In this document: in pieces, positions 2,564 through 46,072 of the stretch | How positions within the stretch are numbered: the first letter of the stretch is position 1 | Layout: the number at the start of each line of letters is the position of its first letter | NCBI RefSeq assembly: GCF_002909255.1 | Contig: NZ_PIOB01000002.1 | Span: 310,001 to 374,000, forward strand | Direction: 5' to 3' | Length of the DNA: 64,000 nucleotides | From: Arenibacter hampyeongensis | GTDB lineage: Bacteria > Bacteroidota > Bacteroidia > Flavobacteriales > Flavobacteriaceae | Notes under the pieces: generated by a model | What the model was told of the DNA's origin: nothing | Database searches by the model: none | What the model saw: the letters and a program-made list of their open reading frames with translations, nothing else | Position numbers and translations under genes: made by a program

Positions 2564-2682
2564 TTTATATTAGTTCACTTTTAACAAACTGGCGAATAGG
2601 ATTTTAATCAAATCCATTGCCGGTAATACTTAAAATCAATCAAAATAAAAGAAACAGTTTAATTAAGCTTGCCAACTTGGTT

Positions 2683-5600
2683 ATGAAATTTATCCCCACT
2701 TCCCTAGTACGAAAATTAAAAAATGCAACAATAGCCGACTTCAATAATTTATTTACCCTGCCGAATTACAGATTTTTGGTGCTTTTGGTCATTTATTCCT
2801 TTATTGGCCTGCAGACAATAAGCGCGCAAGGTCCAACCTGTCCTAAGGCAGAAATTCTTTGTACACCCAATGCCGCCTTTCCTGCAAGAACATCAGGACC
2901 TAATTTTGGAGCTGTGCCATCATGTGCAGGAAACCAAGCCGTAAATAATTGCACAAGTTGTACTGTAAATTCAACCGCTAATTCCGCTTTTTACACTTTA
3001 ACAATTGTAAAGTCAGGAAATCTATATCTTACATTATCCAACTCGGGTTTAAGGGACGTAGATTTTGCTATATGGGGCCCCTATACCAGTCCAGATGCCG
3101 TTGCCAACTGTTCTGGGGGCAATTTTCCTCCAGGCAATCCATTTGATTGTAGCTACAGTGGGGGTGCCACGGAGCAAATTGATATACCGAATGTTAAAAG
3201 AGGTGAATCATATATACTTCTAATAGCCAATTATTCAGGAAGATCAACCAACATAACCCTAGTACCCAATAATATTAACGGAACCAATACGGCTGGAATG
3301 GGAGGGCCTTTGGCATTTTCCGAATCTCAGCCACAGGAAATCTTGATAAACTCGGCTCCGGCCAACTTACAGACCAATCCGCCAATTGGAAATCCAAACC
3401 TTTCCAATGTGAATTTTAGTGGATCGGGAATTACAAATTCATCAACTGGAACTTTCGATCCAGCAATTGCGGGTTTAGGCTCCCATGCTATAACTGTTAC
3501 CGGTGATTCTTGGGGATGTCCGGTAACCACCACAATCGATATTTTGGTGGAGGAAGATACCGATGGAGATGGAATTTATAATTCAACAGACACTGATGAT
3601 GATAATGATGGGGTGCTTGACGGTTCGGACAACGCACCACTAAACCCTTCTAGTTGCCGAGATGTGGATGGTGATGGTTGTGACGATTGTTCTGCCACTG
3701 CCGCTAATGATTTTACGCCTGGAGCAAATTTTAATACCGCTAACGATGGCCTAGATTCTGATAATGATGGAATTTGTAATGATAGAGATCCAGATGACGA
3801 TAATGATGGTAATCCGGACGGCTCTGACCCCAATCCGTTGGTTGCTACTGCAGTTGATGATTTTTCAACAATGATTCAAGGAGTTTTAGGGAACGTCAAT
3901 ATAGTTTCGAATGATGATTTTTCCCCTGGCCTAAATACAACCTTGACTAGAGTTGGAGGTACCGCTAGCGGAATTGTTGGGCTGGATAATATTAGTGGTG
4001 AATTGGCCTATACGGCCACAGCTGGTGAAACAGGGACTACAGTAACTATAATCTATAGAATATGCAATACAGCAGTTTCCCCATCTGTTTGTTCAGATGC
4101 TACTGTAAATATTTTAATTGACATTGATACTGATGGAGATGGGGATCTAAATTCAGTAGATAGCGATGATGATAACGATGGGGTTGCTGACGGATCCGAT
4201 GCCGCACCACTAGATCCTTCCATATGTCAAGATGTGGACAGTGATGGTTGTGACGACTGTTCGGCAACATCCAATACAGACTTTACCGCCGGAAACAATA
4301 TCGACCCTGCCAATGACGGTACCGATACCGATGGGGATGGTATCTGTGATGATGGTGATACGGATAATGATAACGATGGGGTATTGGATGGTGATGACAC
4401 AGATCCTTTAGACCCTTCTATTTGCCAAGATCTGGATGGTGATGGTTGCGACGACTGTTCCGCAACATCAAATACAGACTTTACCGCCGGAAACAATTTT
4501 GACCCTGCCAATGACGGTACCGATACCGATGGGGATGGCATCTGTGATGCCAGCGATACCGATGACGATAACGATGGGGTGTTGGATGGCGTGGATACTG
4601 CGCCATTTGATCCTTCTATTTGCCAAGATCTGGACAGTGATGGTTGCGACGACTGTTCCGCAACATCAAATACAGACTTTACTGCCGGAAACAATTTCGA
4701 CCCTGCCAATGACGGTACCGATACCGATGGGGATGGTATCTGTGATGATGGTGATACGGATAATGATAACGATGGAGTATTGGATGGTGATGATTCCGAT
4801 CCTTTAGACCCTTCTATTTGCCAAGATCTGGATGGTGATGGTTGCGACGACTGTTCCGCAACATCCAATACAGACTTTACCGCCGGAAACAATTTCGACC
4901 CTGCCAATGACGGTACCGATACCGATGGGGATGGTATCTGTGATGCCAGCGATACCGACGATGATAACGATGGGGTTGCTGACGGATCCGATGCCGCACC
5001 TCTAGATCCCTCCATCTGCCAAGATGTGGATGCTGATGGTTGCGACGACTGTTCCGCAACATCCAATACCGACTTTACCGCCGGAAACAATTTCGACCCT
5101 GCCAATGACGGTACCGATACCGATGGGGATGGAATTTGTGATTCAAGCGATAGCGACGATGATAACGATGGGGTTGCTGACGGATCCGATGCCGCACCTC
5201 TAGATCCCTCCATCTGCCAAGATGTGGATGGTGATGGTTGCGACGACTGTTCCGCAACATCCAATACCGACTTTACCGCCGGAAACAATTTCGACCCTGC
5301 CAATGACGGTACCGATACCGATGGGGATGGAATTTGTGATTCAAGCGATACCGATGATGATAACGATGGGGTTGCTGACGGATCCGATGCCGCACCTCTA
5401 GATCCTTCCATCTGTCAAGATGTGGACAGTGATGGTTGCGACGACTGTTCGGCAACATCCAATACAGACTTTACGGCCGGAAACAATTTCGACCCTGCCA
5501 ATGACGGTACCGATACCGATGGGGATGGTATCTGTGATGCCAGCGATACCGACGATGATAACGATGGGGTGTTGGATGGTGTGGATACTGCGCCATTGGA

Positions 5601-8600
5601 TCCTTCCATTTGTCAAGATCTGGATGGTGATGGTTGTGATGATTGCTCGGCAACATCCAATACAGACTTTACCACCGGAAACAATTTTGACCCTGCCAAT
5701 GACGGTACCGATACCGATGGGGATGGTATCTGTGATGCCAGCGATAGCGACGATGATAACGATGGGGTTGCTGACGGATCCGATGCCGCACCTCTAGATC
5801 CTTCCATTTGTCAAGATCTGGATGGTGATGGTTGTGATGATTGCTCGGCAACATCCAATACAGACTTTACCACCGGAAACAATTTTGACCCTGCCAATGA
5901 CGGTACCGATACCGATGGGGATGGTATCTGTGATGCCAGCGATAGCGACGATGATAACGATGGGGTTGCTGACGGATCCGATGCCGCTCCTCTAGATCCT
6001 TCCATCTGTCAAGATGTGGACAGTGATGGTTGTGACGACTGTTCCGCAACATCCAATACCGACTTTACAGCCGGAAACAATTTTGACCCTGCCAATGACG
6101 GTACCGATACCGATGGGGATGGTATCTGTGATGCCAGCGATACCGATGATGATAACGATGGGGTTGCTGACGGATCCGATACAGCACCACTAGATCCTTC
6201 CATATGTCAAGATTTGGACAGTGATGGTTGCGACGACTGTTCGGCAACATCCAATACAGACTTCACCGCCGGAAACAATTTCGACCCTGCCAATGACGGT
6301 ACCGATACCGATGGGGATGGTATCTGTGATGATGGTGATACGGATAATGATAACGACGGGGTGTTGGATGGTGATGATACCGATCCTTTAGACCCTTCTA
6401 TTTGCCAAGATCTGGATGCTGATGGTTGTGACGACTGTTCCGCAACATCCAATACCGACTTTACCGCCGGAAACAATTTTGACCCTGCCAATGACGGTAC
6501 CGATACCGATGGGGATGGTATCTGTGATGCCAGTGATACCGACGATGATAACGATGGGGTTGCTGACGAATCCGATGCCGCACCTCTAGATCCTTCCATC
6601 TGTCAAGATGTGGATGGCGATGGTTGTGATGATTGCTCGGCAACATCGAATATAGACTTTACGGCCGGAAACAATTTCGACCCTGCCAACGACGGTACCG
6701 ATACCGATGGGGATGGAATTTGTGACGATAGTGATACGGATAATGATAACGACGGGGTGTTGGATGGTGATGATACCGATCCTTTAGATCCTTCTATTTG
6801 CCAAGATGTCGATGGTGATGGTTGCGACGACTGTTCTGCAACATCCAATACCGACTTTACCGCCGGAAACAATTTCGACCCTGCCAACGACGGTACCGAT
6901 ACCGATGGAGATGGTATCTGTGATGCCAGCGATACCGACGATGATAACGATGGGGTGTTGGATGGTGATGATACCGATCCTTTAGACCCTTCTATTTGCC
7001 AAGATCTGGATGCTGATGGTTGTGACGACTGTTCGGCAACATCAAATACCGACTTTGCCGCCGGAAACAATTTCGATCCTGCCAATGATGGCACCGATAC
7101 CGATGGGGATGGTCTTTGTAATAGTACAGATGAAGATGATGATAACGATGGAATAACCGACACCGTTGAAGGATCAACAGATTTTGATAATGATGGCATT
7201 CCTAATCATGAAGATTTAGATAGTGATAATGATGGTATTCCTGATGTAGTAGAAACAGGAAATGGTAGTTTCGACATAGATGGTAATGGATCTATTGATG
7301 CCGCAGAAAGCAGTGTTGGCACAAATGGTATTCCAGATGTAATAGAGGCTGGCAGTGTTGACGGCGCAGGGGTGACTGCAGTTCCTGTGAATAGTGACAA
7401 TTTAGGAGGCGCCAATTATTTGGATATTGATTCTGATAATGATGGTATAAAGGATTTAGTTGAATCTCAGACGGATGATGAATTGGTACAAGCATCTGGT
7501 AATGATTCCGATAATGATGGAATCGATGATGTTTTTGATATCGACAACGGTGGTAATTTTACAAATGTGCTCGAAAATTATGATTCGGATGCCCATCCTG
7601 ACTATTTGGATTTGGATTCTGATGCCGATGGGATAGTGGATAATATAGAATGGCAATCTACTTCTGGGTATCTTAGACCAAGTGCTGACACTGATGGAAA
7701 TGGACTAGCGGATAATTACGAAACAGCCCCAGGATCAGGGCAATCCATTTATCAACCTATAAATTTTGGTGGCCTAAGTAATCCTGATTTTAGGGATGAC
7801 AATTCGGATAATGATTTGTATAGTGATCTAATAGAAGCGTACGACCTTGATGGCGACAATATTTCCGAAATTACCCCATCAGGAAATGACATAGATAATG
7901 ATGGATTAGATGATGCTTTTGATCTAAGTATAAGTCCCACTAATGGAATAGCGGATGTAAATGGAGCTACCAATAACAACCAGGATGTCACCCTGTTTCC
8001 CAATGACCAAAATCCGGCTACAAGTGAAGTCGATTTTAGGGAAACCATAGGGTTTTCTGATGCTGTAGATACCGATGGAGATGGGATTAACAATGATATA
8101 GACATTGACGATGATAATGATGGTATTCTGGATTATGTTGGATCCTTAGGCTTTAAACCTACAGATACCCAAGGGGATGATTGTGGCATCCCCCCTGGTT
8201 CTTTTGTCGGAGGAACTTATGTTACAGGTACAGGCTCTGGACCGGGCACTATAAATGCTGAGTATCGGTTCTCAAGTGTTGTTACCTCAAGCCTAGGAGT
8301 ATTGGACGCCATTGTTGTAATTTCAGCAATGAATAATGCTACTTTGAACTCCATTGATGATACTTCCACCGGAAACAATGATGCTTGGCAACCGAGTTTT
8401 GATGTAGGAAGTGTAGCTAGTGTAGCTGGTGAGACAGGAAGTATAACCTTTAATGTAATTTTGGTAGCCGCTGGAACTAGTTTTCAAGTTACTCTTATTC
8501 GATTTGGTGGTGTAATTTATGATATTGACGGAGCAAACACCAAAGAAAGTGTTACCCTTGCACGTCCCGGGTTATATGCCGTAGATAACAACAGCCTGCT

Positions 8601-11600
8601 AAGCGTTACAGAAAATTTAGCTGCAGGTACAACATCCTTCGACGGACCTGCACAGACATGGCCAGGGGTTAATCTTGGCCCGAAACTAGCTGTATACTTT
8701 AATTATTATGATACAGCGGATTTAACCATCACATTTTCAGGAGAGCTGCAATCTGGTTTTACTTCAAATGATTATTTAGGTTCTGTTTTATTTCAAACAT
8801 GTGATATAAATGGGTTGTTCGATCCATCAAATACCACATCTTCAACTAATACTGCTGGTTCACCTGCTGGTGTAGCTTCAGGCCCTGGTTCTTTTCCAAT
8901 ATTTACAGTAAATGATGGAATAGATTCTGATGAAGATGGTATTTCAGATGCATTGGATATCGATGCCGACAATGATGGTATTCCGGATAATGTAGAATAT
9001 CAAACTACCCTATCTTATATCGCTCCAGGCACACTGGATACTGATAATGATGGTTTATTGGACGCCTACGAAGGCTCTGGAAATGAGGGTTTAACATTTA
9101 TTGACACAGATTCGGATGGTATTCCTGATTATGTGGATTTGGACTCCGATAATGATGGAATATCTGATACTAAGGAGGCGGGCTTTGCCCTAGCTACAAA
9201 CAATACGGATTTTGATCAAGATGGCTTACTTAACGCATATGACAACGTTGATACTACTGGGGGCCTATTCGATTCAAATGACGATCAGGACAATGGCACT
9301 TCAGACTTACCAAATATTGCAATCAGTTCAACTCCCGAAGTAGATTTTAGAGAAGTTGGTGTTGATGATAATGATTTGGATGGAATCCCTGATTCAGTCG
9401 ATTTAGATGATGATAATGATGGAATATTAGATACATTAGAGACTTCAGGAGGTATTGACCCAAGCGTTGATACAGATGCTGACGGAATACTGAATTATAG
9501 AGACCTTGATTTTGGGGTTGATGCAAATTCCGATGGAATTGTAGATATTTTTGATACTGATTCCGATGGGGTACCTAATCATTTTGATTTGGATGCTGAT
9601 AATGATGGAATTTATGATGTAGTCGAATCTGGTGGTGGACAACTTTTTTCCATTGGACGTTTAAATGGAGCTGTAGGAACCGACGGTATACCGAATTCAG
9701 TTCAAGCGGGCGGGCAACAGAATAGTGGAACGGTAAATTATACCCTTTTAGACTCTGAAACTTCTGCAGATGGTATTGCAGATTATTTAGAATTGGATGC
9801 TGATGGTGATTTATGCCCTGATGTTGTTGAAGCCGGTTATACTGATCTTGACACCGATGGAATTTTAGGGGATGCTCCAACCATAGTAGATGTTAACGGT
9901 CTTGTTACAGGTGCCAACGTTTCTGACGGTTATACCACACCTAATAATGCAGATAGTGCTTCTAATTCACAGTACGATTTTCAACAACCGGGCGTTGCAC
10001 CAACTATAGCAACAGGAACAGAGCAACCGCAAGATATTCTTACGAATGGTAGTGCACCTGAAACCTTTTCAGTAACCGCTACTGGTACAAGTTTAGCATA
10101 TCAATGGCAGGTAGATGATCAACAAGGATCTGGTTTTATAGATATTGATGCGGCAAATACTTCTGATATATATACCGGAAGTAATACCAGTGCATTAACA
10201 TTAACGGCCGTTACTAGTACCGAAAGTGGATATGAATTTAGGGTGATAATCACCGAAACTTCTTTCCTTTGTTCACCTATTAACTCCAATAATGCATTAT
10301 TAACCGTTGATGTAACTCCACCAGCAATACCAACTGTCGAAACTCTAATTACCAATGACACAACACCGGTACTCAGCGGTACGGCCGAGATTGGAAGTAC
10401 CGTTACCGTAGTGGTAGCGGGTGCAACCTATACGACTACGGCTGATGGTTCCGGAGACTGGAGCATTGATACGGAAACGGCAACACCAGTTAGTGGGGCT
10501 TTTAATCCCAATGTGAACGGTACCAATGAAGTAACGGTGACCAGTACGGATGCTGCCGGGAACAGTACTGTGGATACGTCTTCCATGGAGTTGACCATAG
10601 ATACTACGGATCCTGCAGAACCAACAGTTGTGAGTCAGACTACGAATGACACAACACCTGTACTCAGTGGTACGGCCGAGATTGGAAGTTCCCTTACCGT
10701 AGTGGTAGCGGGTGCAACCTATATTACTACCGCTGATGGTTCCGGAGACTGGAGCATTGATACGGAATCGGCTGTTCCTGATAGTGGAACTTTTAATCCA
10801 AATGTGAACGGTACCAATGAAGTAACGGCGACCAGTACGGATGCTGCCGGGAACAGTACTGTGGATACATCTACCTTGGAGTTGACCATAGATACTACGG
10901 ATCCTGCCGAACCCACAGTTGTGAGTCAAATTACCAACGACACAACACCGGTACTCAGTGGTACGGCCGAGATTGGAAGTATCCTTACCGTAGTGGTAGC
11001 GGGTGCAACCTATACGACTACGGCTGATGGTTCCGGAGACTGGAGTATTGATACGGAAACGGCAACACCGGATAGTGGTACTTTTGCACCAAATGTGAAC
11101 GGTACCAATGAAGTAGCGGTGACCAGCACGGATGCTGCTGGGAACAGTTCTGTGGATACGTCTACCTTGGAGTTGACCATGGATACCAACGATCCTGCCG
11201 AGCCAACAGTTGTGAGTCAAATTACCAACGACACAACACCGGTACTCAGCGGAACGGCCGAGATTGGAAGTACCCTTACCGTAGTGGTAGCGGGTGCAAC
11301 CTATACTACTACGGCTGATAGTTCCGGAGACTGGAGCGTTGATACAGAAACGGCAACACCGGATAGTGGGGCTTTTAATCCCAATGTGAACGGTACCAAT
11401 GAAGTAACGGTGACCAGTACGGATGCTGCTGGCAACAGTACTGTGGATACCTCTACCTTGGAGTTGACCATAGATACTACGGATCCTGCAGAACCAACAG
11501 TTGTGAGTCAGACTACGAATGACACAACACCGGTACTCAGCGGTACGGCCGAAATTGGAAGTACCGTTACCGTAGTGGTAGCCGGTGCAACCTATACGAC

Positions 11601-36310: not shown

Positions 36311-36346
36311 TTGAAATAAGTCATAAAAACTATATTTTTGTTTAAC
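36311..36346 (+). promoter_or_regulatory. Bacteroidetes promoter with overlapping GTTTAAC element before the MerR gene
   Basis: A -33 TTG (36311-36313), a 19-bp spacer and the -7 box TATTTTTG (36333-36340) lie 22 bp before ATG 36362. GTTTAAC (36340-36346) overlaps the end of the -7 box and matches the half-site found at two downstream promoters, which suggests autoregulation by the encoded MerR protein. Confidence 0.65.
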
Positions 36347-36361
36347 CTTTTTTTAGAAAAA

Positions 36362-37261
36362 ATGAACAACGTTAAAAGTAACTTTAGCATCAAGGACCTT
36401 GAAAATCTCTCTGGCATAAAGGCCCATACTATTAGAATATGGGAAAAGCGTTACAATCTTTTTCAACCGAACAGAACGGATACCAACATAAGGTGTTACA
36501 ATATAGAGAACCTTCAAAAACTGCTTAACGTTACGTTTCTCTATAATAACGGTTATAAAATTTCCAAGATATCGCAACTTGGAGGGGATAAAATTCCGAA
36601 GGTTGTGAGAGATTTGGTTTCAGAACAAAGTAACAACGGACATGTTTTAAATTCCTTTAAAATGTCCATGATGAATTTTGACCAAGCCCTGTTCTTCAAA
36701 ACTTATAACGAGCTATTAAAAGAAAAATCTTTTAGGAATATTTTCTATGAAGATTTTATCCCCTTTTTACATGAATTGGGCCTACTTTGGCAGACAGATA
36801 CCATAACGCCCTCCCACGAACATTTTATATGCGCCTTGATAAAGCAAAAGATTTTGGTGAATACTGAAAAATTGCAAATTAATACGCACACCAAAACCTG
36901 CAAAACCTTTGTACTGTATCTTCCTGATAACGAAATTCATGAGTTGGGCCTAATGTTTCTCAATCATGAAATCCTATCAAAAGGATATCAGGCTATTTTT
37001 CTTGGACAAAGTATCCCAATATATAGTTTAAAGGATTTAAAGCCTCTATATGACAATATTGTATTCGTTTCCTATTTTACAGTTCAACCGGGCAAAGATA
37101 ATATAATGTCATATCTCAAAGATTTTCATGATTTGCTATTGGCAGACAATACCTCAGAGCTATGGCTATTGGGCAAAATGCTTAAGGAAATAAACCAAGG
37201 AGATTTGCCCAAGTCTATAGTTCCTTTTTCCAAAATTGAAGAATTGGTAAAAAAGCTTTAG
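36362..37261 (+). CDS. MerR-family regulator with cobalamin-binding domain (CarH/LitR-like photoreceptor type)
   Basis: The product has 299 residues from ATG 36362, which gives the usual short leader before the HTH. A MerR HTH (about residues 8-75; KAHTIRIWEKRYNLFQPNRT) is followed by a helical B12-binding 2 domain with the W-x9-E-H motif (W, QTDTITPSH, EH) and a B12-binding Rossmann domain with E-x-H-x-x-G (NEIHELG), a slight variant of D-x-H-x-x-G. In CarH/LitR these residues hold adenosylcobalamin, and light breaks the cofactor and releases DNA. The sequence therefore suggests a functional light or B12 sensor. Two following operons share a dyad that could be its operator. Binding of B12 is inferred from motifs. 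Confidence 0.85.
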   Translation: MNNVKSNFSIKDLENLSGIKAHTIRIWEKRYNLFQPNRTDTNIRCYNIENLQKLLNVTFLYNNGYKISKISQLGGDKIPKVVRDLVSEQSNNGHVLNSFKMSMMNFDQALFFKTYNELLKEKSFRNIFYEDFIPFLHELGLLWQTDTITPSHEHFICALIKQKILVNTEKLQINTHTKTCKTFVLYLPDNEIHELGLMFLNHEILSKGYQAIFLGQSIPIYSLKDLKPLYDNIVFVSYFTVQPGKDNIMSYLKDFHDLLLADNTSELWLLGKMLKEINQGDLPKSIVPFSKIEELVKKL

Positions 37262-37485
37262 TCCACATTATATTGATGTAAAATTACATACATATCCAAC
37301 ATTGCTTTCCAAAAATTATTAGCGTTATAAGCGGTTATTCTTACATTAAGAACACTCCAGATTTAAATCAAGGGGTTAAAACCTGATTTCGGCCAATACT
37401 TGAGCCTGTATACATTTATGGGGAATCGCTTTTGGTCTAAAAAGCCCACAATAAACCACCAAATTCCAAAATCACGTTAAATTTT

Positions 37486-37527
37486 GTTTAATATTTAAAA
37501 CAAAAGGTTAAACATTTTGTATCTTGT
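37486..37527 (+). promoter_or_regulatory. operator-like dyad GTTTAA-N16-TTAAAC and -7 box before TetR operon
   Basis: GTTTAA at 37486-37491, 16 bp, and TTAAAC at 37508-37513 are reverse complements. ATTTTG and a -7-like box TATCTTGT (37520-37527) follow, 19 bp before ATG 37546. An extra GTTAAA lies at 37476-37481. No -33 TTG is at the usual distance, so activation or a weak core promoter is possible. The same dyad with the same spacing occurs at 41045. Confidence 0.65.
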
Positions 37528-37545
37528 GCTATACAATCCAAAGTC

Positions 37546-38202
37546 ATGGCAAAAAAGAAAACAATTTCAGAAAACGACATCATTTCAACATACATGGATT
37601 TTGTTCTTGAACATAATGAAAACCCAAAATCGGTCTACGCCTTTGCAAAAGCCTACAACTTTGAAGAATCTAAATTTTATCAATTTTTTGGTTCTTTTGA
37701 AGCTATTGAGAAACATGTTTTTAAAGCTTTTTTCGACAATACACTTTCTGTTATGGAGAAAAGCGATGATTACAAATCTTTCGATGCCCGAAATAAACTA
37801 TTGAGTTTCTACTTCACTTTTTTTGAAAATTTGACTGCCAATAGAAGTTATGTAGTTTATGCACTGGATAGGCATAAAAACGGTCTAAAAAGATTAACCA
37901 TATTGTCGGAACTAAAAAAGAGTTTTACCGCCTACATTGAAGGTCTGGACATAAAAACTCTTGAAATTAAACAAGAGCAAATAGATAAAATTCAGCGGCG
38001 AGCGCTTCAAGAATCGGCTTGGCTGCAATTACTCTTGACCATGAAATTCTGGATAGACGACACCTCCTCCTCTTTTGAAAAGACCGATATTTTTATAGAG
38101 AAATCGGTCAACACTAGTTTTGATATTTTAAATATAGCTCCTCTTAAAAGTGTGATCGACTTTGGAAAATTCATTTTCAAGGAAAGGATGCACACGAATT
38201 AA
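37546..38202 (+). CDS. TetR-family regulator
   Basis: The product has 218 residues. The N-terminal region (about 8-60; ISENDIISTYMDFVLEHNENPKSV, then FAKAYNFEESKFYQFFGSFEAIE) has the length and helix pattern of a TetR HTH, with Phe residues in the recognition helix as in flavobacterial relatives. The rest is a helical ligand/dimer domain. It is the first gene of a unit with an ABC1 kinase gene (8 bp gap) and an NAD(P)-binding gene. Its promoter carries the GTTTAA/TTAAAC dyad, placing it under the putative MerR regulator. What it controls is not evident. Confidence 0.75.
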   Translation: MAKKKTISENDIISTYMDFVLEHNENPKSVYAFAKAYNFEESKFYQFFGSFEAIEKHVFKAFFDNTLSVMEKSDDYKSFDARNKLLSFYFTFFENLTANRSYVVYALDRHKNGLKRLTILSELKKSFTAYIEGLDIKTLEIKQEQIDKIQRRALQESAWLQLLLTMKFWIDDTSSSFEKTDIFIEKSVNTSFDILNIAPLKSVIDFGKFIFKERMHTN

Positions 38203-38210
38203 AATCCAAA

Positions 38211-39524
38211 ATGAAATCAATAGACAATATACCTGTTTCAAAAATTCATCGTGCCTCAAAATTAGTGTCCACCGGCGCTCGTGTTGGGGTTAATTATCTC
38301 AAGTACTACGGCGATAAAATTACCAAAACCGAAATTGAGGCTAGGACACGACTCAATGAAAACAATGCCGAGGATATTTATGACAGCCTTAAACTACTTA
38401 AAGGAAGTGCCCTTAAAGTGGCTCAAATGTTAAGTATGGAAAAAAGCATAATGCCCCAAGCGTATGTAGAAAAATTTTCCTTGGCTCAGTTTTCCGTACC
38501 ACCCTTGTCGCCCCCTTTGGTACTTAAAACCTTTAAAAAATATTTTGGCAAATTGCCAAATGAATTATTTGATTCCTTCAACACAACTTCAGTAAACGCC
38601 GCTAGCATTGGACAAGTCCATGAGGCAGTAAAAGATGGGAAAAAACTCGCTGTGAAAATCCAATATCCTGGAGTTGCCGAGAGTATAGCATCCGATTTAG
38701 CCTTGGTTAAACCCATTGCTATTAAAATGTTTAACATAAAAGGTAAAGACTCCGACAAGTACTTTAAGGAAGTTGAAGGAAAACTATTTGAGGAAACAAA
38801 TTATGTTTTGGAAATGAAACAGAGCAAGGAAATTGTGAAGTCCTGCTCCTTTATTCCCAATCTTTTGTTTCCTCAATATTATGAAGAACTATCCTCTGAT
38901 CGTTTTATTACTATGGACTATATGAAAGGAGAACACCTTTCTGAATTTACGGCCTACAATACCGATCAATCAAAAGCAAATAAATTAGGGCAAGCACTTT
39001 GGGATTTTTATATGTTCCAAATACATAATTTAAGAAAAGTACATGCAGATCCACATCCAGGAAATTTCTTGGTGTCCGAGGAAGGTGAATTGATCGCATT
39101 GGATTTTGGCTGCATAAAGACTATTCCCAATGAATTCTATATCCCCTACTTTGAACTGGCCAAACCAGAAAGTATAAGTGATCATAATTTTTTTGTATCT
39201 AAATTATACGAACTGGAAATTTTGCGTGAGGACGATTCTAAGGAAGAAACCGAATTTTTTACAAGTATGTTCCATGAATTGTTGAGCCTTTTCACCCAAC
39301 CGTTTCATGTAGAAACCTTTGACTTTTCGGATGGGGAATTCTTCGGAAAAATCACCGAACTTGGACAACGTTATTCTAAAAGTACCGAATTGCGAAAAAT
39401 GAATGGCAATAGAGGTTCCAAGCATTTTATTTATATCAACAGGACGTTTTTTGGATTATATAACCTCATGTTCGATTTAAAAGCCAACAATATCAAGATC
39501 AATAATTTTATTGACTTGCAATAA
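38211..39524 (+). CDS. AarF/ABC1/UbiB-family atypical kinase
   Basis: The product has 437 residues. It has the ABC1 (UbiB-like) signature regions: K-V-A-Q at 69-72 (the family's KxGQ motif, here with Ala), KIQYPGVAESI, catalytic loop HADPHPGNFLV, and metal-binding LDFGCIKTI. Family members are atypical kinases or ATPases that support ubiquinone or other isoprenoid lipid metabolism and stress tolerance. Flavobacteria use menaquinone, so the target is not obvious. The gene starts 8 bp after the TetR gene and shares its promoter. In a light-stress setting it might protect membrane quinones or lipids; this is inference. Confidence 0.88.
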   Translation: MKSIDNIPVSKIHRASKLVSTGARVGVNYLKYYGDKITKTEIEARTRLNENNAEDIYDSLKLLKGSALKVAQMLSMEKSIMPQAYVEKFSLAQFSVPPLSPPLVLKTFKKYFGKLPNELFDSFNTTSVNAASIGQVHEAVKDGKKLAVKIQYPGVAESIASDLALVKPIAIKMFNIKGKDSDKYFKEVEGKLFEETNYVLEMKQSKEIVKSCSFIPNLLFPQYYEELSSDRFITMDYMKGEHLSEFTAYNTDQSKANKLGQALWDFYMFQIHNLRKVHADPHPGNFLVSEEGELIALDFGCIKTIPNEFYIPYFELAKPESISDHNFFVSKLYELEILREDDSKEETEFFTSMFHELLSLFTQPFHVETFDFSDGEFFGKITELGQRYSKSTELRKMNGNRGSKHFIYINRTFFGLYNLMFDLKANNIKINNFIDLQ

Positions 39525-39564
39525 TAAGTTGTTCTTAAACAATATATCTAATTTAATGTAATAG

Positions 39565-40989
39565 ATGAAAATTCTCGTAACTGGTGCAACAGGGTATATC
39601 GGAAAACGATTGATCCCCATTTTAATCAACGAAGGTCATCATGTGGTCTGTGCCGTAAGAGATAAATTAAGAGCTGACAAAAATTATCTTGAAGATGAAC
39701 ACATCACTATAGTTGAGGCAGATTTTTTAAAGCAAGACACGCTAAATAATATTCCTAAAGATATTGATGTAGCCTATTATTTAATCCACTCAATGTCTAA
39801 CTCTTCCAACAACTTTGAACGCTTGGAAGCAGTTTGTGCGGCTAATTTCAAGTCCTATTTTTCATCTACCCAATTAAAACAGGTGATTTATTTAAGTGGC
39901 ATAACCAACGATGAGCAACTTTCCAAACATTTACAATCCAGGAAAAATGTAGAAGATATTTTGGCTTCGGATTCATATGGCCTTACCATCTTAAAGGCAG
40001 GTATCATCGTGGGATCAGGAAGTTCATCCTTTGAGATTATTAGGGACTTAGTAGAAAAATTACCTGTCATGGTAGCGCCAAAATGGCTCAATACCAAAAC
40101 ACAACCATTGGCGGTAAGGGATGTCTTGGCGTTTTTATCACGAGCAAAGGGTAAAAAAGAGTTTTTCAACACTTCATATGATATTTTTGGTCCCGAAATT
40201 TTGACCTATAAGCAAATGCTCTTGGAGTTTGCAAAGATAAGGGACCTAAAGCGCTATATCTTAACGGTGCCGGTTATGACTCCAAAACTTTCTTCGTATT
40301 GGCTGTATTTTGTTACCTCCACCTCCTACAAATTGGCAACAGCACTAGTAGATAGTATGGGAGTCCAAATTGTTGGGAAACCAAGCAATATAAATCAACT
40401 TCTGGAGGTGAAACCAATAACCTACAAAGAAGCTGTGGAATTGGCTTTTGAGAAAATTGAACAAAACAGCATTGTATCAAGTTGGAAAGATTCCATGGTA
40501 AGTAGTGGCCGCTTAAAGAATAGTCTGCACAAATATATTAATGTACCCAAATACGGATGCTTTAAAGACTATAAAGAACGTAAAGTCCAAAATGAGAAAG
40601 ATACCATCAAAAAAATCTGGTCCATTGGAGGCACGACAGGTTGGTATTACGGAAACTTTCTATGGAAAATAAGGGGTTACCTAGACAAACTAGTAGGCGG
40701 TATTGGATTACGTCGTGGTAGAACCCATAATTCCGAATTGGATGCGGGAGACGCCCTTGATTTTTGGCGCGTGATTTTCAGTGATAAAAAAGAAAAAAAA
40801 CTATTGCTCTATGCCGAAATGAAGCTGCCGGGAGAGGCTTGGCTGGAATTCAAAATTGATGAAGGTCTACTTAAACAAACTGCAACCTTTAGGCCGCGTG
40901 GACTTGCTGGCCGTTTGTATTGGTACAGCGTATATCCTTTCCACGGTTTTATCTTCACTGGATTGATCAATAAACTCGTTTCCAAATAG
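39565..40989 (+). CDS. NAD(P)-binding SDR-like protein with C-terminal DUF2867
   Basis: The product has 474 residues. Residues 1 to about 300 form an atypical, extended Rossmann domain starting KILVTGATGYIG (2-13), of the NAD(P)H-binding YbjT-like type. The C-terminal part (about 320-474; GGTTGWYYG, RGRTHNSELDAGDALDFWRV, MKLPGEAWLEF) matches DUF2867, and this two-domain form is a known family of unknown function. It follows the ABC1 kinase by 40 bp and ends the operon. Redox or quinone chemistry is plausible from the company it keeps, but no substrate is known. Confidence 0.82.
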   Translation: MKILVTGATGYIGKRLIPILINEGHHVVCAVRDKLRADKNYLEDEHITIVEADFLKQDTLNNIPKDIDVAYYLIHSMSNSSNNFERLEAVCAANFKSYFSSTQLKQVIYLSGITNDEQLSKHLQSRKNVEDILASDSYGLTILKAGIIVGSGSSSFEIIRDLVEKLPVMVAPKWLNTKTQPLAVRDVLAFLSRAKGKKEFFNTSYDIFGPEILTYKQMLLEFAKIRDLKRYILTVPVMTPKLSSYWLYFVTSTSYKLATALVDSMGVQIVGKPSNINQLLEVKPITYKEAVELAFEKIEQNSIVSSWKDSMVSSGRLKNSLHKYINVPKYGCFKDYKERKVQNEKDTIKKIWSIGGTTGWYYGNFLWKIRGYLDKLVGGIGLRRGRTHNSELDAGDALDFWRVIFSDKKEKKLLLYAEMKLPGEAWLEFKIDEGLLKQTATFRPRGLAGRLYWYSVYPFHGFIFTGLINKLVSK

Positions 40990-41044
40990 AACATTTTTAT
41001 ATAGTAATAGCCTATACTGTCATAAGCAAATAATATCCAATTCT

Positions 41045-41086
41045 GTTTAACAAATTTTTACATTTCTTAAACGTTTTGTAACTTTG
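41045..41086 (+). promoter_or_regulatory. operator-like dyad GTTTAA-N16-TTAAAC and -7 box before second stress unit
   Basis: GTTTAA (41045-41050), 16 bp, TTAAAC (41067-41072), then GTTTTG and a perfect -7 box TAACTTTG (41079-41086), 19 bp before ATG 41106. Spacing to the -7 box equals that at 37486-37527 exactly. As there, a -33 TTG is missing. Confidence 0.7.
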
Positions 41087-41105
41087 ATAACAGGGTTAAA
41101 TCAAG

Positions 41106-41537
41106 ATGATTTTAGAAACTTCACATAAAAACAAAGGCATTTCCTTACTTATCAATGATGTTGTAGGGAAGCCTTTCAGTTTTATAAAAATCATAAAAAT
41201 GAAAGGGTGCAGTTCTAAAAGAATGATTATCGAAGATTCCAGTCCCAATTTGAAAGCCTACCAAAACCGGGCCAATGACCCTACCTATGCAAATATAGAA
41301 TTACGCCCCTTGGGAATCCTAATAAGAATTATAAAAGGCCTGAGCAATTTTACTTGGGTAATTCCCTATTATCAATTGGTTATTTACAAAAGTAACAACA
41401 GCCATATATATTCTCAAGGACGTTTTATTCGATTTAGGGCAGACAAGAACTTCGAAGGGAACAAGGACTTCTTTCAGAAGCTTATGGATCAAAAAGAAAA
41501 GTATGAGGCCAAATTTGGTTATCTAAATTTTAAATGA
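41106..41537 (+). CDS. hypothetical small protein
   Basis: The product has 143 residues. It is basic and mixed alpha/beta, with a conserved-looking centre LRPLGILIRIIKGLSNFTWVIPYYQLVIYK and a charged C-terminus. No transmembrane segment, signal peptide or catalytic motif is clear, and I do not recognise the family. It is the first gene after the second GTTTAA/TTAAAC dyad, so it is likely part of the same stress regulon as the SDR and glutathione peroxidase genes downstream. A 271-bp gap separates it from the next small gene, so that gene may have its own promoter. Confidence 0.65.
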   Translation: MILETSHKNKGISLLINDVVGKPFSFIKIIKMKGCSSKRMIIEDSSPNLKAYQNRANDPTYANIELRPLGILIRIIKGLSNFTWVIPYYQLVIYKSNNSHIYSQGRFIRFRADKNFEGNKDFFQKLMDQKEKYEAKFGYLNFK

Positions 41538-41808
41538 TCAATAACGAAAGGGTATTGATTATACTATTGAAATGGCCTCGGAATATAGAATGCCCTTTGA
41601 AACCATTGAAAATTAGTTTTCAATTTCTAAACTGGAGGAAATATAACTGATGCATTGGGAAATACGGCCAAGTAGTTTTAAAAGGTGGAGTTCACGTATT
41701 AATGGTCGGACTACCAAACACCAATAATTAAGAACGTTTGGCAAAGTGCGCTTTAAACGCACAATACAAAAATATCGGAATTACAGAACAATCTTAAAAA
41801 TTAATAAT

Positions 41809-42039
41809 ATGGATCTCATAAACGAAGCATTGGAATTTGAACAAAGAAAACTAAAATCGCTTTCAACTAGTGACAGGATTGAAATTTCACGAAAAGCAAA
41901 AGCATTAATTTTGGGCTTGAACGAAATCTATAAGAGCAAAAAAGACGATAAGATCATGGAGATCATGAAACGCCTTACCGCCATTAAACGGAAAGTAGAA
42001 AAAAGATTAAAGGGCAGGCCCTTGATTTCCAATACATAA
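41809..42039 (+). CDS. hypothetical small helical protein
   Basis: The product has 76 residues from ATG 41809; a longer frame from 41746 is less likely because its extra residues are unlike a protein start. It is highly charged and fully helical by pattern (EALEFEQRKLKSLSTSDRIE, KIMEIMKRLTAIKRKVEKRL). Similar short proteins occur beside SDR and photolyase-type genes in flavobacteria, as I recall. It lies 12 bp before the SDR gene, so cotranslation is likely. No function can be assigned. Confidence 0.6.
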   Translation: MDLINEALEFEQRKLKSLSTSDRIEISRKAKALILGLNEIYKSKKDDKIMEIMKRLTAIKRKVEKRLKGRPLISNT

Positions 42040-42051
42040 GACATCCTTAAA

Positions 42052-42735
42052 ATGAGAACAGTAGTTATCATTGGAGGCAGCAAAGGGATAGGTAATGCTA
42101 TTCTTGAAACTTTGGTTGATTCCCATAATATAGTCAACATTAGTAGGTCCGTTCCTAAACAGACCCACTCCAATTTAACACATTTCAATTGTGATATACT
42201 TAAGGACGAATTACCAGAAATTACGGCTATGGATGCCTTGGTATACTGTCCAGGAAGTATCAATTTAAAACCTATTGGCCGATTAAGCTTGGAAGACTTT
42301 AGGGAAGACTTTGAAATAAATGTTATTGGGGCAGTAAAGGTTATTCAAAAGTATTTGAACGTATTAAAAAAAGGCGAACGGCCCTCGGTTTTACTCTTTA
42401 GCACGGTAGCTTCCAAATTAGGTATGCCTTACCACGCCAGTATTGCCACGGCCAAATCCGGTGTGGAAGGACTGGTAAAATCCTTGGGTGCGGAATTGGC
42501 ACCAACCTTACGCATAAATGCCATTGCACCTACGGTTACAGATACGCAATTGGCTTCAAAGCTTCTGCGCAACGATAAGATGATCGAAAATATTAAGGAC
42601 CGACATCCGTTAAAAAAATTCCTAAATCCTAAGGAGGTAGCAGATACGGCAGAATTTTTATTATCGGACAAAGCCTCCTCTTTCTCGGGACAAATCTTTG
42701 AAATGGACTGCGGAATAGTAACTTTTAAAATTTAA
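42052..42735 (+). CDS. SDR family protein lacking the catalytic Tyr
   Basis: The product has 227 residues. The nucleotide-binding motif GGSKGIG (8-14) is intact and Lys135 is present, but the position of the catalytic Tyr, four residues before that Lys, is Ile131 (HASIATAKSG). Ser117/Thr118 is at the normal distance. The reaction may use another residue such as Tyr127, or the protein may bind NAD(P) without classical activity. It follows the small helical gene by 12 bp and precedes glutathione peroxidase by 3 bp, so all three are coupled. A role in redox protection is inferred from the operon. Confidence 0.8.
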   Translation: MRTVVIIGGSKGIGNAILETLVDSHNIVNISRSVPKQTHSNLTHFNCDILKDELPEITAMDALVYCPGSINLKPIGRLSLEDFREDFEINVIGAVKVIQKYLNVLKKGERPSVLLFSTVASKLGMPYHASIATAKSGVEGLVKSLGAELAPTLRINAIAPTVTDTQLASKLLRNDKMIENIKDRHPLKKFLNPKEVADTAEFLLSDKASSFSGQIFEMDCGIVTFKI

Positions 42736-42738
42736 TGT

Positions 42739-43278
42739 ATGAATCCGTTCAAAATATTTGCGGCAACTCTATTCTCGGGTCCAAAACCTGCAGAAAAGCT
42801 AGATTTGCAAACCCTACATCACATCAATTTAAATGACTTAAGCAGTAGGCCTATACACCTCAAGGACTTTGAAGGAAAGCATGTTTTATTTGTAAACGTA
42901 GCATCAAAATGCGGCTTTACTCCCCAATACAAGGAACTACAAGAACTTCATGAAGCCTATAAAAACAAATTGGTGGTCATAGGATTGCCATGCAATCAGT
43001 TTGGGGGCCAGGAACCTGGCAAGGCTAAAGACATTGAGGTGTTTTGTGAAGTGAACTACGGGGTAAAATTCCTCATAACTGAAAAGCTTGATGTGAAAGG
43101 CAAAAACCAGCATCCCGTGTATCGATGGCTTACGAACAAAGCTTTAAACGGTGTTAAAAATTCGACGGTAAAATGGAATTTTCAAAAATATCTTGTGGAC
43201 GACAAAGGAATTTTAATCGATTATTTTTTCTCAAATATCAGTCCCATGAGTACTAAGATTACAAAATATTTAAAATAA
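42739..43278 (+). CDS. glutathione peroxidase family (thiol peroxidase)
   Basis: The product has 179 residues. Catalytic Cys58 lies in NVASKCGFTPQY, with Gln87 in LPCNQFGGQEPG and Trp in VKWNFQKYLVD completing the tetrad; Cys85 may be the resolving residue. It is a Cys form, not a selenoprotein. Enzymes of this type in bacteria usually use thioredoxin to reduce lipid and hydrogen peroxides. The first ~20 residues are weakly hydrophobic without a clear signal peptide, so it is probably cytoplasmic or loosely membrane-linked. It sits at the end of the dyad-controlled unit and fits a photo-oxidative stress role. Confidence 0.9.
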   Translation: MNPFKIFAATLFSGPKPAEKLDLQTLHHINLNDLSSRPIHLKDFEGKHVLFVNVASKCGFTPQYKELQELHEAYKNKLVVIGLPCNQFGGQEPGKAKDIEVFCEVNYGVKFLITEKLDVKGKNQHPVYRWLTNKALNGVKNSTVKWNFQKYLVDDKGILIDYFFSNISPMSTKITKYLK

Positions 43279-43433
43279 TGGTCATGTTCGGAATATTCAA
43301 AAATAAATCCAAATAAGAAAAGTATAACGGCCTTATGAAGGAATGGCATACACTTTCTAGTATCCATAAAGCGGAAAGCCACAAAAAATATGTAGAAGCG
43401 CAGGAAGTTTTGGAAGAACTCGTGGCCATGTAA
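43278..43433 (+). pseudogene. broken small gene resembling Lacal_2735-family proteins
   Basis: ATG at 43284 (or 43278, overlapping the peroxidase stop) reads MFGIFKNKSK, then an in-frame TAA at 43314-43316. The same frame continues EKYNGLMKEWHTLSSIHKAE and on to TAA at 43431-43433. As recalled, intact flavobacterial Lacal_2735-family proteins begin MFGxFKKKS and continue EKL..YKKLL.EAH.LS, so the two pieces line up as one ~50-residue gene with a short deletion plus a nonsense codon. The position right after the peroxidase gene fits a former last gene of the operon. A sequencing error is the main alternative. Confidence 0.6.
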
Positions 43434-43631
43434 ATTAATTGAACCCAACAGTCTATTTTCCTTGAACAAAACAATTTCAAAGCATCACATAATAATTTGG
43501 CCAAGCATCTGCTACAACCGCTTCCTAAAACTCTTCTCGCCCAATATCTTTAAATCGCCAATTATTGCCCTTTCCATTTCCCTTTCATTGATTTTTTCCC
43601 TAGGTTACAAAAGAATCGTGTTTTATACCCC

Positions 43632-43760
43632 ATGACCAATTCTGATTTTTTAATGTATTTTAAATTCACAATGGCCTTGGCCACAATTTTCCTTTCCATT
43701 ATTTCTTTAAGTAAATCCAAAGGTCAGATGGACAGCGACTCCAATAAAAAATTACCGTAA
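43632..43760 (+). CDS. possible 42-residue single-span peptide
   Basis: The gap 43434-43810 holds no long gene. A short frame from ATG 43632 to TAA 43760 would encode a peptide with one hydrophobic segment (FTMALATIFLSIISL, about residues 12-26) and a polar tail. There is no Shine-Dalgarno site, promoter or homology recalled. It could be a chance frame. Confidence 0.2.
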   Translation: MTNSDFLMYFKFTMALATIFLSIISLSKSKGQMDSDSNKKLP

Positions 43761-43810
43761 ATATTATATCTTTAGAACTGATAGTATTCAAACTAATTAA
43801 TTCAGAATAG

Positions 43811-46072
43811 ATGAAGTTATCAGTACTTTTGGCCTTTCTTTTATTATACTCAGTGGGATATGCCCAAAACATTCCTGGAACAAAATTAAATATCAAAAAA
43901 TTCAATGGGGAAATTGTATTGGATGGAGTCTTGGATGAAGTTGCTTGGAAGGAGGCCGATGTTGCCGACAATTGGTATCAAAACTTTCCCGTAGATAGTT
44001 TGCCTTCCCCCTTTCAAACAGAGGCACGAATGACCTTTAATGATGAATTTCTGTATGTCTCGTTTGTCTGTTATGATGATGATACCCCAGATGTTGTAAG
44101 TACGCTTCGTAGGGATTTCAAGTATGCCATCAACGATAATGTTTCCTTCATATTCGGACCCTACAATGACCGTTTGAACGGTTATTTTTTTAATGTCACG
44201 GCCATCGGGGCGCAAAGGGAAGGTACCGTCTCCAGTGGTGGCAATGGTGAAAATGCCTTCAATATATATTGGGACAACAAGTGGTACTCCAAGGTTGTTA
44301 GGTACAAGGATAAATGGATTGCCGAATTAGCAATCCCATTCAAAAGTTTTAAGTATAAGAGTGATGTAAACCAATGGAACGTCACCTTTGATAGGCTGGA
44401 TAAAAAACGAAATATTAAGTCGGCATGGGTACGCACCCCTAGACAATTCTATACAGGCACATTTGCCTATGCAGGCCAGCTGGTATGGGAAGATCCCATT
44501 CCTGCTGCCAGTACCAATATTTCACTTATACCCTATGTTTCGGGAGGGGCGTTCCAAGATCGAGAGCTAGACCCTATTGAATCCTCTACAGAAATACAGA
44601 CCGGTTTCGATGCCAAAATAGGCATTACACCTTCTATGAATTTAGACCTCACCGTAAACCCCGATTTCTCCCAAATCGAAGTAGATGAACAAATTCTCAA
44701 TTTATCCAGATTCGAATTTCGGTTTCCCGAGCGAAGACAATTCTTCTTGGAAAATAGCGACCTTTTTGACAACGCCGGTTTTGATTCGGCCAGACCATTT
44801 TTCTCAAGACGTATAGGCATAATTCAGGATACATCCGGAATAGCGCAAAAAGTACCTATAATGTACGGCGCTAGACTCAGTGGTACCATAAATCAAAAAT
44901 GGCGCTTGGGCCTTATGAATATGCAAACCAAGAAAATGTTGGAATTGGGACTACCTGGCCAAAACTATACTGTGGCAACCGTGCAAAGGATGTTCTATGA
45001 ACAATCCAGTTTTTCCATGACCTTTGTGAACAAACAAAGTCTAGGGGTTTCGGAAAGTGATTCCTTGAAATATTTCCATCCCAGTATTTTTGGCCGGCCT
45101 ACTATGGCCGAGCGTGTTCGGCCAAACACTTACAATAGGGTCATTGATGCCGATCTAGTGTTGAGAAGTAAAGATAATAGGTGGTACCATAGTTCTTTTT
45201 TAGCCCAATCTTTTGACGATAGAAATAAGGCAAAGACCATGTCCGGTTCGGCCTTTTTCCAGTATTCCGACCGTAGTCTCCTGGCCAATTTAGGAACCTT
45301 TTTTGTTAATAAAAACTTTAATGCCGAAGTTGGCTATGTACCGGGAAGCATGGTATACCCCGGGCAAATGGGCTATTATTCTGAATTGGCCTATAAAATC
45401 TACCCTGAGAATAATAGTTTGCTTTATTCTGGGCCTCAGGCTAGAATAAATGATACCTATTTACCAAACGGTACCTTGGTAGATAGAGAATATGCCATAG
45501 GATATGCATTTGAATTTAAAAACTCTTCTAACCTTAGCTTGGATTTAGAACGTGTTTTTCAACAACTGACCTTTGATTTCAATCCCGTGAACGACGCGGA
45601 GTCCAGAAAATTTTTGGAAGGGGAAGAATATAGCTGGAATACTATTTCTGCTACATATCAAAGTAACACTACAAAGAAAATGAATTTCTTGTTGAATTCC
45701 ACTTATGGCGGATTTTACAACGGCACCAATCTTAATATAGCCGGACAGCTCGATATGAGATTTCAACCCTATGTAAATATTGCTATGCGTTTCGACTATA
45801 ATAATCTAAAATTGGATGAAGACTATGGAAGCGCAGAGTTAATACTTTTAGGACCAAAGTTGGATGTTACCTTTACGGACAAACTTTTCTTTACAGGTTA
45901 TTACCAGTACAATAATTTAACGGACAATATGAATTTGAACGCAAGGTTTCAATGGAGATATAAGCCCGCTTCGGATTTCTACATAGTTTATACGGAAAAT
46001 TATTTCCCCTCTAATTTTACAAGCAAGAATAGGGCATTGGTTTTTAAACTTACCTATTGGATCAATCTCTAA
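43811..46072 (+). CDS. DUF5916 outer-membrane protein with CBM9-like N-terminal domain
   Basis: The product has 753 residues. A signal peptide (1-19, VGYAQ) is followed by a carbohydrate-binding-module-9-like beta-sandwich (about 28-215; GEIVLDGVLDEVAWKEAD, WIAELAIPFKSFKY) and a long region that ends in alternating beta-strands and a final ...KLTYWINL, typical of an outer-membrane barrel. DUF5916 proteins are widespread in Bacteroidetes; the CBM9-like part suggests sugar binding, but function is not established. The FPERRQFFLENSDLF motif is a hallmark of the family. It stands alone, with its own promoter presumably in the 43434-43810 gap. Confidence 0.87.
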   Translation: MKLSVLLAFLLLYSVGYAQNIPGTKLNIKKFNGEIVLDGVLDEVAWKEADVADNWYQNFPVDSLPSPFQTEARMTFNDEFLYVSFVCYDDDTPDVVSTLRRDFKYAINDNVSFIFGPYNDRLNGYFFNVTAIGAQREGTVSSGGNGENAFNIYWDNKWYSKVVRYKDKWIAELAIPFKSFKYKSDVNQWNVTFDRLDKKRNIKSAWVRTPRQFYTGTFAYAGQLVWEDPIPAASTNISLIPYVSGGAFQDRELDPIESSTEIQTGFDAKIGITPSMNLDLTVNPDFSQIEVDEQILNLSRFEFRFPERRQFFLENSDLFDNAGFDSARPFFSRRIGIIQDTSGIAQKVPIMYGARLSGTINQKWRLGLMNMQTKKMLELGLPGQNYTVATVQRMFYEQSSFSMTFVNKQSLGVSESDSLKYFHPSIFGRPTMAERVRPNTYNRVIDADLVLRSKDNRWYHSSFLAQSFDDRNKAKTMSGSAFFQYSDRSLLANLGTFFVNKNFNAEVGYVPGSMVYPGQMGYYSELAYKIYPENNSLLYSGPQARINDTYLPNGTLVDREYAIGYAFEFKNSSNLSLDLERVFQQLTFDFNPVNDAESRKFLEGEEYSWNTISATYQSNTTKKMNFLLNSTYGGFYNGTNLNIAGQLDMRFQPYVNIAMRFDYNNLKLDEDYGSAELILLGPKLDVTFTDKLFFTGYYQYNNLTDNMNLNARFQWRYKPASDFYIVYTENYFPSNFTSKNRALVFKLTYWINL

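Follow-up and report, generated by a model that had tools for sequence, protein, structure and literature searches.

The DNA under study, called the window throughout, is a 64,000-nucleotide stretch (C12:310001–374000) of the 5.43 Mb genome G000, which its named relatives place in the family Flavobacteriaceae. It carries a gene for a CarH-like MerR regulator followed by two gene units whose promoters share the inverted repeat GTTTAA-N16-TTAAAC, hereafter the dyad (Table 1). Unit 1 encodes a TetR-family protein, an ABC1/UbiB-type kinase and an NAD(P)-binding DUF2867 protein, and unit 2 two small proteins of 143 and 76 amino acids (sm143 and sm76), a short-chain dehydrogenase (SDR) and a glutathione-peroxidase family protein (GPX). 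The original prediction, made from the letters of the window, took the shared dyad as the sign of a putative stress regulon controlled by vitamin B12 and light. Our analysis points to a photoprotection regulon of the CarH/LitR type with an unusual operator, in which light and B12 would gate expression. Family scans of nine window proteins (36362–46072) bore out the predicted TetR, ABC1, NAD(P)-binding DUF2867, SDR and peroxidase genes and returned no LOV-type family among these nine. The window had also been said to hold no photolyase and no carotenoid gene, which is correct: the sole PF00875 match of the genome lies on a different contig, and so does its single crtI-family match that clears the cut-off for the family.

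Table 1. Coordinates of the regulator gene, the promoter elements and the two gene units in the window.
Feature	Position	Strand	Basis or remark
merR promoter	36333..36346	+	Half-site GTTTAAC 36340-36346 runs into the -7 box TATTTTTG 36333-36340
MerR/CarH-like regulator, class A (Ile26)	36362..37261	+	ATG start 36362; MerR and B12-binding_2 domain matches, C-terminal part beyond them aligned to CarH
Third half-site GTTAA	37476..37480	+	10 bp upstream of dyad 1
Dyad 1, GTTTAA-N16-TTAAAC	37486..37513	+	Candidate operator of unit 1 (TetR-ABC1-DUF2867), covering the -33 region
-7-like box TATCTTGT, unit 1	37520..37527	+	TATCTTT[A/G] consensus among relatives
TetR-family protein (TetR_C_23), first gene of unit 1	37546..38202	+	Family match
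ABC1/UbiB-type atypical kinase, unit 1	38211..39524	+	Family match
NAD(P)-binding protein with DUF2867, unit 1	39565..40989	+	Family match
Dyad 2, GTTTAA-N16-TTAAAC	41045..41072	+	Proposed operator of the sm143-sm76-SDR-GPX unit
-7 box TAACTTTG, unit 2	41079..41086	+	Exact position in window
sm143, conserved 143-aa protein, no named family, first gene of unit 2	41106..41537	+	
DUF2805/TIGR03643 gene remnant with in-frame stops	41548..41799	+	tblastn 46% over 84 aa, E 3e-17
sm76, conserved small 76-aa protein, unit 2	41809..42039	+	
Short-chain dehydrogenase (SDR), unit 2	42052..42735	+	Family match
Glutathione-peroxidase family protein (GPX), unit 2	42739..43278	+	Family match

The dyads and their conservation

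Both predicted dyads are exact, and the identical spacing claimed for them was recovered, with a gap of 6 bp from each dyad to a TAnnTTTG-like -7 box. A TTG at -33 is absent from both promoters, as described before, and the GTTTAAC reported on the -7 box of merR overlaps it as drawn in Table 1. The plus strand of dyad 2 can in addition be read as a series TTAACA, TTTACA and TAAACG, spaced by 10 and 11 bp, and the third half-site GTTAA seen at dyad 1 is absent there. The assertion that such a coincidence of spacing is hard to get by chance did not survive for the window alone, 11 of 100 shuffles of which gave at least two matches at ≤1 mismatch; in the whole genome the exact dyad occurs at 6 sites versus 3 for the reversed pattern. 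Because these window-only statistics are weak, the case rests on conservation. Two of the four other exact sites in G000 lie inside open reading frames (L001, L002) and two (L005, L006), by our scan, in no open reading frame of 100 amino acids; L005 and L006 were left as chance occurrences.

Lack of conservation in relatives had been named as grounds for abandoning the idea, and the comparison gave the opposite result. We collected 20 regions of relatives in which the TetR and 143-aa genes lie near each other, chosen by high protein similarity and linkage and not by motif; they represent 17 genera, of which three occur twice and one is that of the window. All 20 relatives have the dyad at the TetR promoter, 18 in exact form and 2 with a single mismatch, and all 20 have it, exact, at the sm143 promoter; in all 21 loci (20 relatives plus window) the TetR dyad lies 58–62 bp before the ATG. 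Alignment of 42 sites, including the two from the window, gave the consensus TGTTTAA-N16-TTAAACATTTTGTAnnTTTR, with GTTAA ten bases upstream in 25/42 promoters; a TTG at -33 did not appear in this position-wise consensus. The extended pattern, comprising dyad and -7 box with ≤1 mismatch, was then matched against 397 genomes of the family, of which 225 contain it and 14 contain the reversed control (rows counted by eye). The shuffles described above are what would speak for chance, or for a general promoter element without a dedicated regulator. We hold that reading to be barely credible: the conservation of the dyad at fixed places in two promoters of 20 relatives, the 225 versus 14 genomes and the dependence on MerR class described below refute it as far as sequence can, and they support the shared dyad as a putative regulatory element.

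We also chose 20 further sites among the extended-pattern matches and read their neighbours. Seven precede other TetR genes of the same family (L299, L302, L303, L306, L308, L312, L314), six precede photolyase-containing units (L297, L298, L305, L309, L311, L313), one precedes an sm76 unit (L307), two precede DUF2805 (L300, L304) and one no recognised gene (L301). In L315 and L316, from two congeneric genomes, the dyad stands before a gene resembling a flavin adenine dinucleotide-binding oxidase (by eye), a possible further member of the regulon. In L310 the gene behind it is fasciclin-like (by eye), and a gene of this kind also faces the class-B merR of locus L038 discussed below.

The binding protein

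MerR proteins of the 397 genomes were divided into class A, to which the window protein belongs, and class B, a diverged class (29–36% identical), "no MerR found" being defined at a threshold of E 1e-25. The extended dyad is present in 215/293 genomes with a class-A MerR, in 1/27 with class B only and in 9/77 with no MerR found, and six of these last nine are at most 91% complete. The same dependence is seen within genomes that have the TetR gene, where 188/234 with class A and 1/14 with class B only carry the dyad (Fisher 3e-8), and within genomes that lack it, where 27/59 with class A versus 2/77 without do so (Fisher 4e-10).

TetR promoters were inspected in 12 of the 14 TetR-positive class-B genomes. 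In G038, G261, G262 and G345 an exact GTCTAA-N16-TTAGAC stands 56–62 bp before the TetR start, the same place as the GTTTAA-N16-TTAAAC of class-A genomes; G040 has the GTCTAA type with N17 (by eye), and G025 is the one class-B genome with an A-type dyad at this promoter. Corresponding half-sites are moreover found at the merR genes themselves. TTTGTTYA occurs upstream of merR in 108/117 class-A loci, and there the T and A of the -7 box are conserved to 99% and 96% and the A at +5 to 86%, none of the three belonging to the search anchor. A search of these class-A promoters for a partner half-site at fixed spacing gave nothing above 12/108, and the element looks like a single half-site. The window merR is probably autoregulated through the GTTTAAC on its own -7 box.

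These data bear directly on whether the dyad might be a TetR operator, serving autoregulation and control of unit 2. TetR is the first gene of its unit, with the dyad at constant distance from its ATG in the 21 loci, and dyad and TetR gene co-occur (63/76 versus 8/44, in 120 genomes). Such an operator would have to account for the contrast of 188/234 and 1/14 among genomes that all possess TetR, for the 27/59 class-A genomes with a dyad and no TetR match, for a switch to GTCTAA..TTAGAC that tracks MerR class in front of TetR genes 59–65% identical to that of the window, and for matching half-sites at merR promoters, mostly in crt loci. We regard it as very improbable. The best-supported binder is the MerR protein, on the strength of conservation, class co-occurrence, the change of operator with paralogue and residue 26, and the match to the CarH core set out below, and the window MerR very probably binds both dyads.

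Several points tell against this assignment to MerR. The two Fisher values are too sharp because the relatedness of the genomes is uncorrected; 78/293 class-A genomes, 46/234 of them when TetR-positive genomes are counted, lack the extended pattern; 7/13 TetR-positive genomes with no MerR found, most of them incomplete, keep the dyad, as a TetR operator would also predict; and G383, which is complete, has a TetR gene and an extended-dyad match and no MerR match at E 1e-6.

Residue 26 and two operator types

By our own alignment to CarH, position 26, just before the conserved Trp27, should lie near the end of the recognition helix. A first comparison gave Ile at this position in 36/37 class-A proteins and Lys in 9/11 class-B proteins. 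All 29 class-B proteins (from the 27 class-B-only genomes plus G000 and G212) divide into 23 with Lys26, 5 with Ile26 and 1 with Val26, and the promoters of their own genes were searched for dyads over 215 bp around the merR start. Among the 23 Lys26 promoters the GTCTAA dyad was found exact in 6 and at ≤1 mismatch in 14 (shuffle means 0.00 and 0.02), and the GTTTAA type at N16 in none; the five Ile26 promoters gave three exact dyads of the GTTTAA type and none of the GTCTAA type. When any 6-mer was allowed in an N16 dyad, GTCTAA ranked first for Lys26 and GTTTAA for Ile26. G025, the class-B genome with the A-type dyad, has Ile26.

The rule is weakened by several observations. The three exact Ile26 cases come from one genus, and G253, a congener of G025 that also has Ile26, shows a mixed site. 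Mixed sites were likewise seen at the class-B TetR promoters of G066, G230 and G253, and no dyad was seen on inspection at those of G007, G014 and G168. Some 11 of the Lys26 promoters also have, close to the start, a stretch resembling GTTTAACTTTG that contains a -7 box and pairs with TTAGAC or CTAGAC at N17 (by eye). Counted over whole genomes, the exact class-B pattern shows no enrichment (27/120 genomes versus 29 for the reversed control, the latter by eye), so that it is informative only through its place at particular promoters.

Two loci deserve mention in their own right. In G168 (L365) the class-B merR has an internal stop; an exact dyad of the GTCTAA type survives at the promoter of this gene, whereas none was seen at the TetR promoter, and decay may be under way. 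In G000 itself, L038 (G000:C6:14000-30000, 2600–8158) contains a second CarH-like gene, with Lys26, which diverges from a fasciclin-like gene (by eye) and from homologues of crtB and crtZ; a photolyase lies close by. Its intergenic region has two GTCTAA-type dyads, one at N17 and one with one mismatch. L038 is likely a second, separate light regulon in this genome.

Taken jointly, the comparisons could describe a family-wide light/B12 photoprotection regulon under CarH-type regulators in which Ile26 proteins read TGTTTAA-N16-TTAAACA and Lys26 proteins TGTCTAA-N16-TTAGACA, the same photolyase-type cluster is handed between paralogues by single-base operator changes, and genomes with both proteins, G000 among them, run two insulated light regulons; for this combined proposal we see the chances as evenly balanced.

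Gene content and carotenoid linkage

Among the 20 fetched regions, 19 contain a photolyase, 17 TspO, 16 a flavin reductase, 15 GTP cyclohydrolase I (FolE), 13 DPRP and 10 a second photolyase. TIGR03643/DUF2805 is present in 19/20, in the orientation of the TetR gene. The photolyases, the DPRP-type protein, GTP cyclohydrolase I and TspO of the relatives lie within dyad-headed units. The window units are without this set of photolyase, TspO, flavin reductase, FolE and DPRP, and of DUF2805 they keep a remnant between the 143-aa and 76-aa genes. The congener G212 has kept DUF2805 and folE, and its photolyases are absent from the region, as in the window; folE follows the DUF2805 gene there and is missing from the window. 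The evidence supports both dyad units as parts of one putative regulon, and the candidate operator is widespread in the family and here stands in a genome whose units are without the photolyase part. As to sm143 itself, it is widespread in the family yet falls in no named family: matches were found in 264/397 genomes, the weaker of which may be paralogues (G000 itself has two).

Where the sequence reaches far enough downstream, in 121 loci, the orthologous merR is followed immediately by crtI in 115. These loci derive from 80 named contigs and 42 other regions, one of which was set aside as too short, and three stretches are in both sets. Among the six exceptions are L227, which is G212, and L063, L064 and L068, which keep crtB beside or near merR. 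In most relatives examined merR heads a crtI-crtB-crtZ operon. The crt operon of G000 has no merR in front (L252), its congener G373 has one there (L250), and in G212 merR precedes the TetR gene, as in the window. In G000 and G212 the regulator thus adjoins a cluster that it would reach in trans elsewhere. In a protein tree that does not fix the place of the window MerR, this protein did not group with the G373 MerR at crtI. Of the original term "stress regulon" the shared regulon stands; "photoprotection regulon" is the better label, because the dyad units of relatives contain photolyases and the orthologous MerR heads a carotenoid operon.

Two incidental observations concern these loci. The crtI-crtB-crtZ operon of L252 (G000:C7:10000-29900, about 8934–9535) lies in its usual neighbourhood (PRTase, aroK) and has no merR in front. 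Three flavobacterial merR contigs (L119, L146, L164) are filed under metagenome-assembled genome titles naming Rhizobium sp., Klebsiella pneumoniae and Bifidobacterium breve, and are probably mislabelled or come from mixed bins.

The MerR protein and its likely signal

The window MerR matches PF13411 (E 4e-12) and the four-helix bundle family PF02607 (B12-binding_2, E 2e-7), and its best PDB matches are CarH chains (E 7e-11, residues 8–226). No match to the Rossmann B12-binding Pfam family, which we take to be PF02310, was reported at E ≤ 0.001. The W-x9-EH and ExHxxG motifs ascribed to it earlier are present as W143, E153-H154 and E191-x-H193-x-x-G196. In class A the W and E of W-x9-EH occur in 37/37 proteins and the H in 33/37 (Arg in 4); of the lower axial motif (E/D)xHxxG, E191 and H193 are found in 37/37 and G196 in 35/37. 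MliR of Bizionia was considered as an orthologue and rejected, its abstract reporting no effector domain.

Some features tell against a light-controlled regulator of the CarH type. On illumination His132 of TtCarH is reported to take over the cobalt (PMC8156234; PMC10442372), and without it monomer formation is reported to stop (PMC10442372); the position is Gln144 in the window protein, and Q in 34, H in 2 and L in 1 of the 37 class-A proteins. The NCBIfam CarH equivalog NF052513 scores 63.4 bits against a cut-off of 400. A signal other than light, such as the supply of adenosylcobalamin (AdoCbl), redox state or another ligand, would accommodate the loss of the second histidine, the more so as class-B proteins have Gly at this W+1 position in 9/11. 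Light-sensitive CtMerR (Arg) and SasPcob (Gln) are, however, also reported without that His (PMC11796333). The W, E, H and lower-ligand H are moreover retained, photolyases lie in the units of relatives and carotenoid genes follow merR, so that a MerR bound to the dyads and answering to something other than light is in our view unlikely. Light control of the window MerR is plausible, and its photochemistry would be of a non-bis-His kind.

Comparison with known regulators

CarH of Thermus thermophilus, Bacillus megaterium and Myxococcus xanthus resembles the system here in its MerR DNA-binding domain with a cobalamin region, in W-x9-EH and ExHxxG, in an operator over -35/-33 with TnnACA half-sites and, through the relatives, in linkage of merR to carotenoid genes. 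The CarH half-site core is given as TnnACA (PMC9304148; PMC8156234); TTAAACA and TTAGACA both contain it and differ only at its free positions. In our alignment the search pattern already dictated the T, A and C of this core; the remaining outer base was left free by the pattern and completes the core as T at -1 in 42/42 sites and as A at +28 in 41/42, the exception being window dyad 2. With an estimated start site, the candidate operator spans roughly -55 to -18, near the extent of the M. xanthus CarA/CarH operator, which is reported at -70 to -19, overlapping -35, and represses (PMC8156234). The likeness ends with the Gln in place of His132 and with the targets, which here are TetR/ABC1/DUF2867 and SDR/GPX units. 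The layout also speaks against the proposed reading: known CarH operators are three or four tandem 11-bp direct repeats, whereas here an inverted TnnACA pair stands 22 bp apart with an optional third site at 10 bp. Dyad 2 is also near-tandem at its 10- and 11-bp steps, with TAAACG as the last repeat.

Class II LitR proteins (PplR of Pseudomonas putida, PmlR2 of P. mendocina) have a similar regulon, with photolyase, cryptochrome-like protein, SDR and GTP cyclohydrolase I, the light-induced Pseudomonas set under LitR control being reported as phrB, cryB, folE and SDR (PMC9758184). Their half-sites, T(G/A)TACA-N12-TGTA(C/T)A, fit TnnACA, with one site over -35 (PMC9758184), but the spacer is 12 rather than 16 and the half-site letters differ. 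PplR and PmlR2 lack part of the B12-binding region and work with a short LOV protein encoded next to them, whereas the window MerR keeps its B12 motifs. MerR VCA0056 of Vibrio cholerae is likewise a MerR-type gene in a predicted operon with photolyase and belongs to the blue-light response; its proposed signal is reactive oxygen species, and the accessible part of that report describes no operator (PMC5241685). In Nonlabens spongiae and Echinicola marina merR is the first or an internal gene of the crt cluster, and the accessible parts of those papers only list it, without an operator or a photolyase link (PMC11855829, PMC8683446). No description of the operator or of a residue-26 rule was found in our searches of the open-access literature.

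Proposed mechanism and significance

We propose that the dyads are operators of the adjacent class-A CarH/LitR-type MerR, each half-site (TGTTTAA, TTAAACA) being a CarH-type TnnACA element. The half-sites are inverted and 22 bp apart, a distance of two turns of the helix, many sites add a third one 10 bp farther upstream, and the candidate operator covers the -33 region of the two promoters. In the dark an AdoCbl-bound oligomer would sit on the operator and block RNA polymerase; in the light the Co–C bond would be broken, the protein released and both units expressed, which would limit photo-oxidative damage. On the GTTTAAC over its own -7 box, MerR would probably control its own gene. In most relatives a crt-heading merR would act in trans on the TetR cluster, beside which it stands in G000 and G212. 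We infer physical binding, the sign of regulation and the part of AdoCbl and light as signals from sequence comparison, and consider the full scheme of dark repression, AdoCbl and light at both dyads reasonably likely.

MerR could instead activate, recruiting or realigning RNA polymerase at promoters without a -33 TTG, and both the window promoters and the 42-site consensus would suit such a role. Classical MerR activators bind in the -33/-7 spacer; the centre of the dyad lies about 31 bp before the estimated start, over -33 and outside that spacer. The CarA/CarH operator, as noted, overlaps -35 and represses (PMC8156234). Activation strikes us as quite unlikely, and repression as in CarH is the reading we prefer.

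In the literature consulted, CarH-type regulators are described mainly from Thermus, Bacillus and myxobacteria; they are used as optogenetic parts. If the proposal is true, residue 26 together with one operator base would supply a rule of specificity from which orthogonal light switches could be designed, and the operator geometry, an inverted TnnACA pair with a 22-bp step, would be one that the accessible parts of the CarH literature do not describe. The family would also show clearly how a regulon can pass from one regulator to its paralogue. A large family with many members from sunlit waters would then couple carotenoid synthesis with photolyases and with lipid and peroxide protection.

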